From a virus, in IMG/VR virus record IMGVR_UViG_3300022871_000061, positions 1 through 34,319 of that record: a stretch of 34,319 bases of DNA; one strand, 5' to 3'. Positions within the stretch are counted from its first letter, which is position 1; each line of letters starts with the position of its first letter. Positions 1-30,425 of the stretch are shown piece after piece. Made by a program: the position numbers and the translations under genes. The notes under the pieces were generated by a model, which did no database searches, had not been told where the DNA came from, and saw only the letters and a program-made list of their open reading frames with translations.

Positions 1-2186
1 CCGTCAGTATGAGAGGCTGCGTGAGCTGTTGGAGCATCTCCGTCATAAGTTATGTTGCCGTCTGTTACTGCGGTGTCGAATTCTGCTTTAGTTCCTGTAA
101 TTCCTACTATAGTGGTTTGATCGCCAGAATTAGTATTAGAAGTATTATCTAATATAGTTTTTTTCGCATCTGTAAGATTATTCTCTGTCTGGACATAAGT
201 TGAACCATCTCCAATATCATCTTGAGTAAGAACAACTGTTCCTGTATCTCCATTTACACTTAAAACACTATCGGTCGGAGTAGATAATTCAGTAAAGTCT
301 GTCATATCGCCAGCAGACCCTCCATTGTGCATATAGCTTTTATTTTCATCACTTCTAACTACAACATCGCCCTCTTCAGTTGTTAGAGCCAACATTGCAA
401 CTTGACTTGCTGCTACTTGAACAGTTGTCATTGCAACAGGTGGAATAACTGAACTAGGCAATGTGCCAGTTGTTATATTTGAAGCGTTTGAAGTGTCTAA
501 GTTGGGAACGTTATTTAAACTTAAATCTGTTTTTACCTCGGCATAACTTCTACCCTCTAAACCATTAGCAGTGAATTTAGCGTAATCATTATCTGCAACA
601 TCAGCATCATCAATATCAACTGCATTAGTGTTAGATATACCAAAAGTTAAAGCGTCTTGTTTCCCGTTAAAGGTATTCCAGTTTGCGCTTGATAAAGCTC
701 CAGTTGCTGAAGTTGATGATAAGGCTAAACTTAATGCCTGTGTTGAAAGTGAAAGACCGTTAGCGGTTCCTATAGTTACTGGGGTTGAATTGTCTGTTCC
801 TGCTTGGTCTACGTCTAAAGTAGTTCTAGCATTTATAGCAGCGGAATCATCAACTAAACTAGCTCCAAAAGTCGAAATAGTCGTGCTTGCTGGCAAAACT
901 AAAGTCTTTATGTCAGCATCTACTTCTGAATCCATTAAAGCACCTGCTGTTGTTACATTTGCAGTATCTGTTACATCAGCTCCGTCTTCAACGTTTAAGT
1001 CTGAACGAACCTCTGTGTAAGACCTGCCCTCAATTCCGTTAACTGTTAGTTTACAGTAATCATTATCTGCTGCATCAGCATCATCAATCTCAACTAAGTT
1101 ATTATCAGCAATTCCGATAGTTTGTTGTGCAAGGACATCAGTTCCTATTACAAGGCCTAGATCAGTTCTGACTTCAGAGTAACTTCTTCCTTCGATATCA
1201 GTTGCATTAATAAATCTAGCAAAATCATTGGCTACTGGTGTACCAGAAGTTGAAACGTTGCCTCCTCCTGCTGGAGTGGCCCAAGTCCCATCGCCCCTCC
1301 AAAATGTTGAACCAGAAGCGCTTGTTCCGCTGTTAAGATTACCTACTGGTAAATTCCCAGTTACGTTATCAACTAAATCAACCTTATTGGCTGTTATCTC
1401 TTGACCAATTATTGAAAGGTAGTCTTCACCAGCTAAAGTTACGTCAGTTGAGTTATCATCAACATATTTCTTAGTAGCTGCTTCTTGGTCAGCTGTTGGG
1501 TCTAAAAGATTTATAATCTTCTTACTCTGCATATCAATCTCATCCGCTGTTATAAGTTGTGTTTCTGTTCCGTCTACTTCCCATTTAGAAGTAACTTTAG
1601 CGTTATTAGCTACTATATTGTCCCATTTTGCTTTAGTTAAAAGCCCAGCTCTTGTTGTAGAGGCTGCGGCTAGAGTAGCATCTGTTCCATCTGAAGAGGT
1701 AACCTTAACTGTTGTTTCAGTAGAAGTTCCTTCTGCTAAATTTGTAATTGTATTTGTATCTTTTAAAGTATTGGCTACTATCTCATCGTATTTATCAGCT
1801 CCTAGAAGCCCTGCATCGTCTGTGTTTGCTTCTGGGATAGTTGCGTTGTCTCCGTCTGAAGAGTTTATGTCTAAAGTAGTTGCTGTTTTAGTTCCGATAG
1901 AAAGGTCGGTATCAACGTTAGTTTCTTTAGCTGTGTTTAAACCAACTGCAGAAATATTAGTTCCGCTATCTTTTATAAGTTTTCCAGAAGTAGAATCGAA
2001 TACTGTTATGTTTTCATCAACTGCTACACCTGGACCAGAAACATCACCATGCCCACCAGCAGAAAGTGCAGCACGAACAGCCTTTTCAGTCGGAACTTGA
2101 GTATCAACTCCAGGACTTCCAAGAGTCTTGGTAGTTTTTAATACTCTGTCTAATTTTCCCGTTACAGGGTTAAGCTTTAATGCCAT
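1..2186 (-). CDS. Tail fibre / receptor-binding-type protein, 3' end beyond window
   Basis: The frame is open from an ATG at 2186 to the window edge, 728 codons without a stop, so the C-terminus is missing. The composition is typical of phage fibres: rich in Thr, Asn, Asp, Ser, Ala and Gly, with almost no Cys. Internal repeats are visible. The motif GRSY-x-EV-x-x-DL occurs three times (about residues 330, 387 and 545), and an SSDG...AT...AGLL module occurs twice (about 107 and 162). Stretches such as VPTEKAVRAAL, TKKYVDDNS and NTNSGDQT are familiar from phage tail-fibre shafts. The ATG overlaps the TAA of the upstream gene (TAATG), which supports this start and translational coupling. It probably forms a trimeric fibre for host recognition; the receptor-binding tip lies outside the window. 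Role inferred from composition, repeats and position. Confidence 0.8.
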   Translation of the reverse strand, partial: MALKLNPVTGKLDRVLKTTKTLGSPGVDTQVPTEKAVRAALSAGGHGDVSGPGVAVDENITVFDSTSGKLIKDSGTNISAVGLNTAKETNVDTDLSIGTKTATTLDINSSDGDNATIPEANTDDAGLLGADKYDEIVANTLKDTNTITNLAEGTSTETTVKVTSSDGTDATLAAASTTRAGLLTKAKWDNIVANNAKVTSKWEVDGTETQLITADEIDMQSKKIINLLDPTADQEAATKKYVDDNSTDVTLAGEDYLSIIGQEITANKVDLVDNVTGNLPVGNLNSGTSASGSTFWRGDGTWATPAGGGNVSTSGTPVANDFARFINATDIEGRSYSEVRTDLGLVIGTDVLAQQTIGIADNNLVEIDDADAADNDYCKLTVNGIEGRSYTEVRSDLNVEDGADVTDTANVTTAGALMDSEVDADIKTLVLPASTTISTFGASLVDDSAAINARTTLDVDQAGTDNSTPVTIGTANGLSLSTQALSLALSSTSATGALSSANWNTFNGKQDALTFGISNTNAVDIDDADVADNDYAKFTANGLEGRSYAEVKTDLSLNNVPNLDTSNASNITTGTLPSSVIPPVAMTTVQVAASQVAMLALTTEEGDVVVRSDENKSYMHNGGSAGDMTDFTELSTPTDSVLSVNGDTGTVVLTQDDIGDGSTYVQTENNLTDAKKTILDNTSNTNSGDQTTIVGITGTKAEFDTAVTDGNITYDGDAPTAHAASHTD

Positions 2187-25873: not shown

Positions 25874-26005
25874 TTATTCAGATTGTTTCAAAACAACGTT
25901 TAAATCGTTTGCTGTTTCTTTAATTCGCCCATCTCCATATTCTTCAGCAAAATCTTCAATCCTTTCTATTATACATTCAATTTTTTTCCCTTCTTCATAT
26001 GTCAT
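25874..26005 (-). CDS. Small acidic protein, unknown
   Basis: 43 residues, charged and helical, beginning MTYEEGKKIECII and containing RIEDFAEEYGDG. Its ATG overlaps the TGA of the preceding membrane peptide (ATGA), a typical coupled arrangement. No family recognised. No signal or membrane segment. Confidence 0.45.
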   Translation of the reverse strand: MTYEEGKKIECIIERIEDFAEEYGDGRIKETANDLNVVLKQSE

Positions 26006-26085
26006 ATTATTTTACCTATTATAATTCCAATTATTATTCCCCAAAATAGTCCACCTAATGATGCTTTTAATTCTACTGGAATCAT
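26002..26085 (-). CDS. 27-residue membrane peptide with Gly-rich face
   Basis: MIPVELKASLG followed by the hydrophobic segment GLFWGIIIGIIIG, stop TGA. Gly residues every 4-5 positions suggest helix packing in the membrane. Its start (GTAAAACTATG) lies 4 bases after the stop of the lysozyme-like gene and ends in an ATGA overlap with the next gene. Holin-like function is a possibility from the neighbour, not from the sequence. Confidence 0.45.
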   Translation of the reverse strand: MIPVELKASLGGLFWGIIIGIIIGKII

Positions 26086-26089
26086 AGTT

Positions 26090-26622
26090 TTACTTTAAAA
26101 ATTTAATGTGTTTCCCTGTGTTAAATACAACCCAAGGATTAAATCCACTTCTCTTAAATAATTCATAAGCTACCCTAACATTGTTTTCTGTATCTAATAG
26201 ATATTCTTCGCTGTGTCCGTGAATACTATTTATCTGAAACAGTCCTGTGTCAGTGCTTCCATTAGTATTTTTTCTATTTACAGCTAAAGGGTTTAAACCA
26301 CTCTCAGCTTTTGCTACTGCGATTGCTACTTCTGTATCTTCTTTAAAATACTTTTTGATTATTTCCTCCTGAGTCTGTGTTGGAGAATCTTGCGAAACTC
26401 CAACAGCAGTAATCTCAGAAGTGTCCTGTATCGTAGCCTCGTTAGAGACAACACCACCGACTACTTTATAAAATCTCCTAGTTGGACATAGAGTTGGTAA
26501 CTGTATAGGAAGCTTGTTCCTATGACGATACCTAGTCCAACAAGAGCTAATACCTTAATGTTCTTTCCTATTTCTGTAAATCTCTTTTTGCGTGCTTTTG
26601 GCACATTGTTGATGTTTTCCAT
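26090..26622 (-). CDS. Membrane-anchored lysozyme/transglycosylase-like protein, split by a -1 frame change
   Basis: The upstream frame (26622 to TAG at 26461) encodes 53 residues: basic N-terminus, a membrane span VLALVGLGIVIGTSFLYSY, then QLYVQLGDFIK. The downstream frame, open from before 26473 to TAA at 26090, encodes a lytic-transglycosylase-like domain: catalytic Glu in AVAKAESGLNP, TGLFQINSIH and GFNPWVVF. That frame has no ATG, GTG or TTG before the catalytic Glu, so it must be reached from the first frame by a -1 shift. TTTT at 26470-26473 allows Phe-tRNA to re-pair (GAT TTT ATA to TTT TAT AAA). Joined, it gives a ~177-residue, inner-membrane-anchored peptidoglycan hydrolase. Either programmed frameshifting, or an indel in the genome or assembly. 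Confidence 0.7.
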
Positions 26623-26664
26623 CTTTTTGTTTTTATTTATTTATTTTTGTTTTTACCTGACTCT

Positions 26665-26694
26665 ATTCTAGCATACTTTCTATTTATTTGTCAA
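26665..26694 (-). promoter_or_regulatory. Sigma70-type promoter of the lysozyme module
   Basis: TTGACA (-35, 26689-26694), 18-base spacer, TAGAAT (-10, 26665-26670), with extended TGC. The -35 overlaps the last codons and stop of the upstream methyltransferase gene. Predicted start about 26658, some 36 bases before the lysozyme-like ATG. Confidence 0.72.
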
Positions 26695-27133
26695 GCGTTT
26701 TTATTTCAACTGTGCATATAGTATCATTATGACTACCCCCATGTGGAACAAGCAACACCTCTATCTTGGCAAATCCACGACTAGCTCCCATACCCATAGA
26801 GTTCCAACCAAATGATATTACCTTTCCATTAACTTTCATTATTCTCGCTATTTCGTCTTTTAGTTTAGACCAGTAAGAACATTTAGTGTCATAAGCCATT
26901 CCAGCATTACTATACATCTCCTTTAATTGTCTTGGACTATACGGTGGGTCAAAAGCTAAATTTTCAACACTATCTGTTTCTAGGCTTTTAAGATACTCCA
27001 ATGCGTCAGTCTTAAAGGGAAAAGGAAATGGGTCTATAAAATCGCTACCCACCTCCCTTTCTAAAAGTTCTTTAATAGGTTTTATTGTGAATGTCTTGTG
27101 GTTAGGCATAGCCCATACTCTAGTTATTTTCAT
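26684..27133 (-). CDS. Short adenine-type DNA methyltransferase
   Basis: 149 residues from the ATG at 27133; an ATG eight codons earlier would overlap the previous gene, so the later start is preferred. It begins VWAMPNHKTFTIKPIKELL and carries the catalytic motif DPPYSPRQLKEMY (about residues 61-73), then a strand-helix with NGKVISFGWNSMGMG. It matches a short phage/actinobacterial type of adenine methyltransferase with this WAMPN...DPPYS pattern. The SAM-binding FxGxG motif is not evident. Expected to protect phage DNA from restriction; activity of so small a protein is uncertain. Confidence 0.65.
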   Translation of the reverse strand: MKITRVWAMPNHKTFTIKPIKELLEREVGSDFIDPFPFPFKTDALEYLKSLETDSVENLAFDPPYSPRQLKEMYSNAGMAYDTKCSYWSKLKDEIARIMKVNGKVISFGWNSMGMGASRGFAKIEVLLVPHGGSHNDTICTVEIKTLDK

Positions 27134-27143
27134 ATTTATTTTT

Positions 27144-27341
27144 CTAATATTTGTCAAGCTTTTTATAAAACCCTTCTACTATCTGTCTAGCTCTCTCTCT
27201 TGTTATCCCATGTTCAAAGCCTATATCCTCTAAAGTCCACCCGTCAAGTCTTTCTTTATATATGCGAGAATTTCTCCTAGCTGTTCGCATACTCTTAACT
27301 TCTACTCTATTTCTTTCCCATCTCTTTGTGTGATTATTCAT
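27144..27341 (-). CDS. Sigma-70 region 4-like small DNA-binding protein
   Basis: 65 residues from the ATG at 27341 (an earlier in-frame ATG would overlap the gene before). The C-terminal 40 residues read like sigma-70 region 4.2: GWTLEDIGFEHGITRERARQ then IVEGFYKKL, matching the helix-turn-helix that contacts the -35 element. There is no region 2, so it cannot act as a full sigma factor. It may be a regulator or appropriator of host RNA polymerase, or a minor HTH protein. The N-terminus is basic. Confidence 0.6.
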   Translation of the reverse strand: MNNHTKRWERNRVEVKSMRTARRNSRIYKERLDGWTLEDIGFEHGITRERARQIVEGFYKKLDKY

Positions 27342-27358
27342 TTGTTTTGATAATTTTA

Positions 27359-27637
27359 TTAAACACATCCTCCACAACACCCTAGTGATACATTTTCATT
27401 CACTAAGTCTTCTGCCTTTCCTTCTAATTCTTTAGGAAAACCTTTTGGAAATTCTCCTATTGACCATGGTCCGCTAGTAACTTCTTCACTCCAGTTTTCA
27501 TCAAAAGAAACATTACCACCGCTACACAGGGAATGGCTAGCAAAGGTTATCTTTTTACCATCTAACTCCATAACTAACTCACCAGAACATAAGTTAGGGT
27601 ATTCTCCATTATATGATATGAATTTTAGTTCTCTCAT
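27359..27637 (-). CDS. Small Cys/Gly-rich protein, unknown
   Basis: 92 residues. It begins MRELKFISYNGEYPNLCSG and contains KKITFASHSLCSGGNV; it ends with GCCGGCV, so five Cys could bind metal. The middle is acidic with GPWSIGEFPKGFP. It looks like a small folded beta domain widespread in phages of varied hosts. No function known to me. Confidence 0.5.
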   Translation of the reverse strand: MRELKFISYNGEYPNLCSGELVMELDGKKITFASHSLCSGGNVSFDENWSEEVTSGPWSIGEFPKGFPKELEGKAEDLVNENVSLGCCGGCV

Positions 27638-29111: not shown

Positions 29112-29660
29112 TTAAAAGGGGATTTTTTCTAATTCTGAGTCAGAAATTTCGCTTTTTTCATTGAAAGGATTATCTCCTGTAAAAAGTGCATCTAAATCTA
29201 TTTCAGTTCTAGCCACTAGCGATTCTTCTTCTTTTGTTAGAGGTTTCCTTGGAGATGGTTGAACTGTGTATCTTCGGTCTAGTCCTTTTCCAGTTCCAGT
29301 TATAGAGATGTCATACTCTGATGGGTTACCCCACTCAGTATTTTCGTTTAATGCTTCTATTTCTTCCTTTACGCTTTTTTGAGTTATTTCAAATACTTTT
29401 ACTACTCCGTCTTCTCGGTCGATCACTTTGAAAGCCCAGAAATGTTTTTGTGTCCAAGAACCATTTGCTTCTACTCTTACATCTTCAGGTTTCTTTTCTG
29501 ACTTCTCGTGAAGTCGAACTGGTTTATTTTCTTCTGTCCAATACTCGTAGCCATATTTAGCTGGGCTTACGATTCTGAACTTAATTGTTCCTTCTATTAG
29601 TTTAAAATAGTTGGAGTTTGTCTTTGGAGCTGATGCTCCTTCTTCTAGGAAATTTTCCAT
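29112..29660 (-). CDS. Single-stranded-DNA-binding-type protein
   Basis: 182 residues. YFKLIEGTIKFRIVSPAKYG then EYWTEENKPVR begins a beta domain seen in phage ssDNA-binding/replication proteins, with aromatic residues spread over the strands (WTQKHFWAFKV). The C-terminal 30 residues are acidic and end ELEKIPF, close to the DDDIPF tip by which bacterial SSBs recruit partner proteins. It would coat replication intermediates near the helicase-type ATPase encoded upstream. The first seven codons (MENFLEE) and the leader are duplicated at the pentapeptide-repeat gene. No Shine-Dalgarno. The name is an inference from fold pattern and tail. Confidence 0.6.
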   Translation of the reverse strand: MENFLEEGASAPKTNSNYFKLIEGTIKFRIVSPAKYGYEYWTEENKPVRLHEKSEKKPEDVRVEANGSWTQKHFWAFKVIDREDGVVKVFEITQKSVKEEIEALNENTEWGNPSEYDISITGTGKGLDRRYTVQPSPRKPLTKEEESLVARTEIDLDALFTGDNPFNEKSEISDSELEKIPF

Positions 29661-29680
29661 ATATTTAATTTATTTAATTA
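29639..29680 (-). repeat. Start-region repeat, copy A (SSB-type gene)
   Basis: A 42-base stretch covering the leader and first codons (MENFLEE) of the SSB-type gene. It matches 30253-30294 at 41 of 42 positions by eye. Confidence 0.8.
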
Positions 29681-29695
29681 TCTTCTCAAATGCAC

Positions 29696-30274
29696 TTATA
29701 ATCCTTTTATAAATTGTTCTGCTTGTTCTTTTTCAAATGATGAAAAGTTTACTGTGCAATAAGTTGTCTTAGCATTTTTAAGGTTAGCATATTCAAGGTT
29801 AGCATTTTTAAGGTTAGCATTTTTAAGGTTAGCATATTCAAGGTTAGCATTTTTAAGGTTAGCATATTCAAGGTTAGCATTTTTAAGGTTAGCATATTCA
29901 AGGTTAGCATTTTTAAGGTTAGCATTTTTAAGGTTAGCATATTTAAGGTTAGCATATTCAAGGTTAGCATTTTTAAGGTTAGCATATTCAAGGTTAGCAT
30001 ATTCAAGGTTAGCATTTTTAAGGTTAGCATATTCAAGGTTAGCATATTCAAGGTTAGCATTTTTAAGGTTAGCATATTCAAGGTTAGCATTTTTAAGGTT
30101 AGCATTTTTAAGGTTAGCATATTTTTCAACTGCCTCCTCTACTGCTTTTTTCATAGTAGTTTTAGTAGATTGAAAAATAACTTCCTCATCATACCTATTC
30201 AATATCGCTATTCCTTCTTCTTTTGTTTCAATTTCTGAAACATACTTCTTGACTTCTTCTAGGAAATTTTCCAT
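29696..30274 (-). CDS. Pentapeptide-repeat protein
   Basis: 192 residues. An N-terminal helical domain (about 1-50) and a short C-terminal tail flank 23 tandem five-residue units, A-N-L-K-N or A-N-L-E-Y (one A-N-L-K-Y). The A(N)L-x-x pattern is that of pentapeptide-repeat proteins, which fold as a right-handed square beta helix, rod-like and often DNA-mimicking (as in Qnr and MfpA, which bind gyrase). The first seven residues are the same as those of the neighbouring SSB-type protein and the leader is duplicated, so the gene borrowed its start from it. The near-identity of units at DNA level suggests recent expansion. Partner unknown; DNA mimicry or scaffold is possible. Confidence 0.85.
   Translation of the reverse strand: MENFLEEVKKYVSEIETKEEGIAILNRYDEEVIFQSTKTTMKKAVEEAVEKYANLKNANLKNANLEYANLKNANLEYANLEYANLKNANLEYANLEYANLKNANLEYANLKYANLKNANLKNANLEYANLKNANLEYANLKNANLEYANLKNANLKNANLEYANLKNAKTTYCTVNFSSFEKEQAEQFIKGL
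29774..30118 (-). repeat. 23 x 15-bp tandem repeat
   Basis: Twenty-three consecutive 15-bp units. The coding-strand core GCTAACCTT is invariant; the other six bases are AAAAAT, GAATAT or once AAATAT. The two main unit types alternate irregularly. Encodes the pentapeptide array. Confidence 0.95.
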
Positions 30275-30294
30275 ATATTTAACTTATTTAATTA
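30253..30294 (-). repeat. Start-region repeat, copy B (pentapeptide gene)
   Basis: Second copy of the 42-base start region. The part 30272-30296 is also present without change at 30676-30700 before a third gene, including the last codons (Thr-Asn-stop) of the respective upstream genes. Confidence 0.8.
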
Positions 30295-30425
30295 GTTTCT
30301 ACTGCTTCGCAAGGTTCTTTACAATCCGAGCATATTTCAAATTCATCTACTGGAGCTGAACAACAATTAGAAACTAAATGCTCTGCTCGTTCTTCAATGA
30401 ATTTTTCTGTTTCGTGATTACTCAT
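30288..30425 (-). CDS. Small Cys-rich protein
   Basis: A 45-residue gene read from sequence, beginning MSNHETEKFIEERAEH, with CC (about residues 21-22) and C-x-x-C-x3-C near the C-terminus (EICSDCKEPCEA), a likely single zinc site. It ends in TNstop within the repeated leader of the pentapeptide gene. It follows a strong hairpin (30445-30475). Function unknown. Confidence 0.55.
   Translation of the reverse strand: MSNHETEKFIEERAEHLVSNCCSAPVDEFEICSDCKEPCEAVETN

Follow-up and report, generated by a model that had tools for sequence, protein, structure and literature searches.

Overlapping reading frames for a membrane anchor and a lysozyme-like domain

The DNA that was analysed, hereafter called the window, is an IMG/VR virus record of 34,319 bases. 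It represents a small uncultured phage. Among its genes are those for a large terminase subunit, for an SU10-like portal protein and for a major head protein, and the main genes lie on the minus strand. Among species-representative genomes, relatives of the terminase were found in three metagenome-assembled contigs, one of which is labelled Candidatus Nomurabacteria. The label hints at a Patescibacteria host, a hint that is weak because of the binning of phage contigs. Few genes in the window are preceded by Shine-Dalgarno motifs.

The locus under study comprises two overlapping ORFs and their surroundings (Table 1). The first-pass annotation had placed a lysozyme-like protein, reachable only by a -1 frameshift, at positions 26090-26622. 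These coordinates are correct, and the strand, which had been left unstated, is the minus strand. The product of the anchor ORF is MENINNVPKARKKRFTEIGKNIKVLALVGLGIVIGTSFLYSYQLYVQLGDFIK, followed by the stop codon TAG. The frame of the catalytic domain is offset from the anchor ORF by -1, so that anchor and enzyme indeed occupy adjacent frames, and reading its codons confirmed that it contains neither ATG nor GTG nor TTG up to AKAES, which includes the catalytic Glu. Overlapping ORFs of which the downstream one lies at -1 and lacks a usual start of its own are typical of programmed -1 frameshifting. The overlap contains GATTTTATAAAGTAG. The predicted -1 fusion has 177 aa, about 126 of which are added after the slip, with the junction GDF-YKV and a linker peptide that includes VGGVVSNEATIQ.

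Table 1. Features of the split lysozyme locus in the window and of a second split locus in contig L114
Feature	Position	Strand	Remarks
Sigma-70-like promoter TTGACA-18-TAGAAT	26665..26694	minus	just upstream of the anchor ORF; consensus match only
Zero-frame anchor ORF	26622-26461	minus	53 aa; basic N-terminus and one predicted membrane helix; ends GDFIK-TAG
-1 frame, linker and lysozyme/SLT domain	26090..26554	minus	open throughout; begins GISSCWTRYRH
Slip site T_TTT (putative)	26470..26473	minus	zero-frame codon 51 TTT at 26472-26470, preceded by T at 26473
Zero-frame stop TAG	26461..26463	minus	two codons past the slip codon
Stem-loop 1	26423..26461	minus	starts 8 nt after TTT; part of the minimum-energy fold in each of the four sequences
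Stem-loop 2	26366..26421	minus	56-nt hairpin with GCAA loop, 1 nt past stem-loop 1
ORF of 27-aa membrane peptide	26002..26085	minus	directly past the lysozyme stop; read from sequence
Second membrane ORF/lysozyme -1 split	L114 (record of L027) 1210-1812		terminase identity 68%

In a profile search the downstream frame proved to be a genuine lysozyme-like domain, with matches to PF18896 above the curated cut-off (E=8.9e-12, 45.7 bits versus 27) and to PF01464 (E=1.6e-7). An invariant ES...G..Q...W pattern, including the catalytic Glu, is found across nine relatives. The domain was modelled with AlphaFold (pLDDT 83.8), and the top PDB matches of the model were C-type lysozymes, with a query-normalised TM-score of 0.73 to lysozyme 2fbd.

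Conservation of the split and selection on both halves

When relatives were aligned, the same split was found at the same codon in the near-identical contig L002 and in three distinct contigs (L013/L003, L014, L017). Their best segments are 60-79% identical to the window in the anchor and 44-85% in the catalytic frame. Between pairs, dS is 0.8-1.5 for the anchor, except for the near-identical L013/L014 (0.05), and 0.45-1.7 for the enzyme. For the anchor, dN/dS of L013, L014 and L017 compared with the window is 0.18-0.27 (at dS 0.8-1.1); for the enzyme, the closest pairs have a dN/dS of 0.32-0.33. Therefore, both halves are in use and are maintained across the break, and the frame change is conserved together with two ORFs under purifying selection, as is expected of a programmed frameshift. 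IMG/VR protein-profile searches with the anchor and the linker retrieved only these contigs, and none without the break. A DNA pattern search gave one further match, L093, which is unrelated.

A natural mutation or a base error in the assembly had been left as an option in the first-pass annotation, and a decayed or miscalled gene, from which no lysozyme would be made, is indeed compatible with the existence of intact single-frame relatives. However, the split is common to four distinct sequences from separate assemblies and separate IMG/VR records, which makes a sequencing error or a broken gene unlikely, and purifying selection continues downstream of the split without any further breakage. 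As the frame change persists in independent contigs and selection acts on both halves, we regard decay or error as hardly credible.

Intact relatives and a second split

In three phages with a terminase identity of 67-71% to the window (L025, L026, L032), and also in the L126/L127 phages, anchor, linker and lysozyme are encoded in one frame. The linker of the window is rich in S, T, D, E and Q, like the linkers of the intact relatives. An in-silico -1 fusion of the window aligned with L115 over residues 23-131 and, across the junction, with L032 (residues 3-164, E 5e-12). The simplest reading is thus that the split gene descends from one with a single frame. Uninterrupted relatives had been named beforehand as a finding that would speak against frameshifting. 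They do exist (L025, L026, L032, L126), but all of them are more distant, as would be expected if the single frame is ancestral.

In SAR endolysins and other membrane-anchored lysins, a membrane segment at the N-terminus precedes a lysozyme-like domain, and both are encoded in a single frame; the segment of SAR endolysins is weakly hydrophobic and leaves the membrane. The protein of the window resembles them in its predicted hydrophobic N-terminal segment ahead of the lysozyme-like domain, the presence of the segment being the extent of the likeness seen here, and differs from them in that its lysozyme is split over two frames.

A second case was found in contig L114, in which a membrane ORF of 36 codons ending with TCT TTT TAA overlaps a lysozyme frame at -1. 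When the two frames are joined by a -1 shift, the product aligns with the intact L115 through the junction (179 columns, 50% identity, E 1e-61). The type of RNA element that is present in the window (see below) was not found in L114. A hairpin at this locus has a z-score of -3.4 for its tightest 52 nt, and 168 of 7,032 windows at the locus fold better. The SLT frame has a possible GTG start. Because of this GTG in the downstream frame, and because the arrangement was seen in a single contig, L114 is taken as supporting evidence only. Taken at face value, the sequences suggest that the lysozyme may have been split twice, in the clade of the window and in L114, apparently independently.

The putative slip site

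Zero-frame codons of the form X_XXN were listed for the overlaps of the window, L013, L014 and L017. T_TTT is the only such codon that is present in all four, at the same codon position, and in L017 it is the sole X_XXN codon of the overlap. It is also conserved in alignments A3 and A4. This lends support to the earlier proposal that tRNA-Phe can slip by -1 from TTT to TTT. In-frame T_TTT occurs 51 times among the 9,350 codons of the listed genes of the window, and thus a position two codons ahead of the stop is not expected by chance. The TTT codon is preceded by GAT or GGT and followed by ATA or ATT, and there is no tandem heptamer. As had been noted before, the site does not conform to the canonical heptamer X_XXY_YYZ, a motif that is common at such sites without being obligatory; only R_GRT_TTT or T_TTT_ATN can be formed. 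Judged by its sequence, this non-canonical site counts against frameshifting, as just one tRNA would re-pair well. A further point against it is that ATA, the codon after TTT, is common in this phage and therefore no obvious hungry codon. Most annotated phage frameshift overlaps lack a classical motif (PMC10885494).

Three other candidates were rejected. Slippage on A_AAG or A_AAA just before the TAG would be possible in three sequences, and L017 has CAA instead. A Shine-Dalgarno-like 5' stimulator (AGGAG beside the site) lies too close and is not conserved in L013, L014 and L017. Recoding of the TAG would not reach the -1 frame, and TAG is an ordinary stop codon in this phage (7 of the 34 listed genes of the window end in it).

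Translation of two separate proteins would also account for overlapping frames. The membrane peptide would then stand alone, and the lysozyme would start at ATA, ATT or ATC after termination-reinitiation at the TAG. An ATA of the catalytic frame overlaps the TAG in L013, L014 and L017, and in the window AGGAGG lies ahead of an ATC. However, the ATA of these three is replaced by GTA in the window, L014 lacks the AGGAGG, and Shine-Dalgarno signals are nearly absent from the genes of this phage. An enzyme made in this way would have no export signal, whereas the intact relatives are single-chain anchored proteins, and the conserved T_TTT would be left unexplained. Reinitiation is therefore judged improbable.

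An RNA element downstream of the putative slip site

The slip site is directly followed by 111 nt with almost no synonymous change, an RNA element that had gone unremarked in the first-pass annotation. The 111-nt alignment folded with RNAalifold, and each of the four sequences folded singly, gave a pair of adjacent stem-loops whose outer helices are the same. The whole 111 nt have z-scores of -3.2 to -4.2 across the four sequences. Stem-loop 1 is weak, the weaker of the two, and the five pairs of its lower stem are invariant. Stem-loop 2 has minimum free energies of -26.6 kcal/mol in the window (z -5.3), -24.2 kcal/mol in L014 (z -4.7) and -26.6 kcal/mol in L017 (z -5.6), and on the minus strand it has the lowest energy among 17,132 sampled 56-nt windows. 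For a 3' structure at -1 shift sites, a review of recoding gives a spacing of 5-9 nt (PMC5009743). The spacer of stem-loop 1 is 8 nt with TTT as the A-site codon and 5 nt with TTT as the P-site codon. The strong stem-loop 2 starts 48 nt from the slip site, which counts against frameshifting.

The helix of stem-loop 2 is kept in L014, although 12 of its 56 positions differ from the window. Random placement of 12 substitutions matched the stability of L014 in 10 of 5,000 trials, permutation of its own bases over the changed sites gave equal stability in 48 of 5,000, and random bases at these sites kept the fold in 334 of 5,000. Compensatory double changes were found at two pairs, with most of the compensatory signal coming from L014. 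When the number of pairs with changes on both sides was tested by shuffling, the observed value was reached in 27 of 500 cases. With no more than four distinct sequences that carry the element, the covariation counts are modest. This small number, the dependence on L014, the 27 of 500 and the 334 of 5,000 weigh against frameshifting. Neither a search of 58 sequence sources for the RNA element nor an exact IMG/VR search for the hairpin core retrieved anything besides the four known copies, and Rfam gave no relevant match in 26000-26800.

In the linker block (38 columns) dS is 0-0.15 and dN/dS, where it can be computed, is near 1. This indicates selection on the nucleotide sequence, and recombination could be part of the cause of the conservation. 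The palindromic linker may be a joint at which enzyme domains are swapped, in which case the RNA fold would be incidental to frameshifting. Nearly identical linkers indeed carry different catalytic domains (L014 and L017 versus the window), and L013 is mosaic, with identical patches beside divergent ones. Yet recent transfer does not explain why the hairpin of L014 keeps its helix despite the 12 differences, and the distance from the slip site to the start of the RNA element is suitable for frameshifting. We consider such a joint as the main explanation rather unlikely, and it would be compatible with a role of the same sequence in frameshifting.

In T4 gene 60, ribosomes bypass a segment of mRNA at a switch point that is marked by a stop codon, with an RNA hairpin nearby. 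The window is similar in having a stop at the switch point and a hairpin in its vicinity. Ribosomes might thus take off at the codon before the TAG, skip the folded linker and land in the lysozyme frame. The stop lies directly after the take-off codon, and the linker, which folds strongly, is synonymously frozen and has a dN/dS near 1, resembles a gap on which selection acts at the level of the RNA and not of the protein. But the window lacks the matched take-off and landing codons of gene 60: the take-off codon varies (AAG, AAA, AAA, CAA), and by eye no landing codon is common to all four sequences. The linker is also open in the -1 frame, has a composition like that of the linkers of the intact relatives, and can be reached by a simple -1 shift. 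Bypassing is therefore seen as very improbable.

A programmed -1 frameshift as the preferred explanation

We favor, with a probability of roughly 0.8, a programmed, RNA-stimulated -1 ribosomal frameshift that would give rise both to an anchored lysozyme and to a short peptide consisting of the anchor alone. Most ribosomes would translate the anchor ORF and stop at the TAG, yielding a single-span membrane peptide of 53 aa as the main product. The two stem-loops, which begin 8 nt downstream, would stall the ribosome, and a fraction of the ribosomes would slip back by one base at T_TTT, where tRNA-Phe would re-pair with TTT. The slipped ribosomes would read on through the linker and the lysozyme domain, and the resulting 177-aa lysozyme would sit in the cytoplasmic membrane by its anchor, with the enzyme outside. 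Slippage itself, its stimulation by the RNA and this membrane topology are what we infer from a conserved split, selection on both halves, a shared slip codon, a conserved RNA fold and a fusion that is collinear with intact relatives. The case for frameshifting made in the first-pass annotation is thereby supported and strengthened. Its suggestion that frameshifting delays or limits lysis may also apply, in that a limited dose of the enzyme would serve the timing or the safety of lysis.

In E. coli dnaX, an RNA structure lies a short distance downstream of the slip site, and the same order is found here. The slip site of dnaX is A_AAA_AAG, and in the window no upstream Shine-Dalgarno stimulator is conserved. 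The -1 shift site of dnaX and several -1 frameshifts of tailed phages are treated in the main recoding review, the latter including lambda gpG-gpGT, T7/T3, Lactobacillus phage A2 and Listeria phages and concerning tail assembly chaperones and capsid or tail proteins, thus mostly virion or tail-assembly proteins (PMC5009743). In these phages a shift of low frequency near the end of the first ORF leads to a C-terminally extended fusion (PMC5009743), and the same is proposed for the window. In contrast to these cases, the extension would be a cell-wall enzyme and not a part of the virion, and the putative slip site is a T_TTT tetramer followed by a two-stem RNA element. Control of lysis via overlapping frames and ribosome behaviour has been described for the MS2 lysis gene (PMC5009743). 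MS2 uses termination-dependent initiation, which leads to a separate small protein, whereas the product of the window is predicted to be a fusion enzyme. Neither "lysozyme" nor "endolysin" occurs in the text of that review as far as it was accessible (PMC5009743), and no case of a phage cell-wall hydrolase made by frameshifting was found in the open-access literature, judged mostly by titles and abstracts.

A frameshifted lysozyme, if true, would add an extra layer of translational control to phage lysis. The RNA element is compact and directly testable, and the locus is a warning that lysins of this kind will be missed or split by gene callers. Tentatively, and with clearly less than even confidence, we propose that phages of a poorly known bacterial group have placed an anchored lysozyme under -1 frameshift control at least twice, that the two-stem RNA of the main clade fixes the ratio of enzyme to anchor peptide, and that the peptide may regulate lysis.

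Flanking features

The promoter-like site upstream of the anchor ORF has 11 of 12 matches and a TG ahead of the second hexamer, and L114 has a comparable site, TTGACA-17-TATACT, ahead of its own split gene. The 27-aa peptide MIPVELKASLGGLFWGIIIGIIIGKII downstream of the lysozyme is hydrophobic and a candidate for a tiny holin. In L014 and L017, the lysozyme genes are followed by 30-aa hydrophobic peptides of different sequence. With a tiny membrane ORF directly after the lysozyme, the locus may be a lysis cassette.

A second block that is conserved at the nucleotide level lies at the start of the anchor (26592-26634, minus strand, 43 nt, AAAAACAAAAAGATGGAAAACATCAACAATGTGCCAAAAGCAC). It is identical in the window, L014 and L017, while the remaining anchor ORF has strongly diverged in L017. 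In L013 (1081-1569), about 490 bases separate the conserved TTGACA region from the anchor ORF, compared to about 45 in the window (26634-26680), which indicates that different sequence has been inserted just upstream of the cassette. Elsewhere on the minus strand, an ORF at 29696-30274 consists of ANLKNANLEY pentapeptide-type repeats, and its 5' end (30253-30300) is nearly repeated in that of the next gene (29639-29686). A small ORF at 27144-27380, also on the minus strand, has weak similarity to sigma factors (phrog_1740, phrog_351, E about 0.006).
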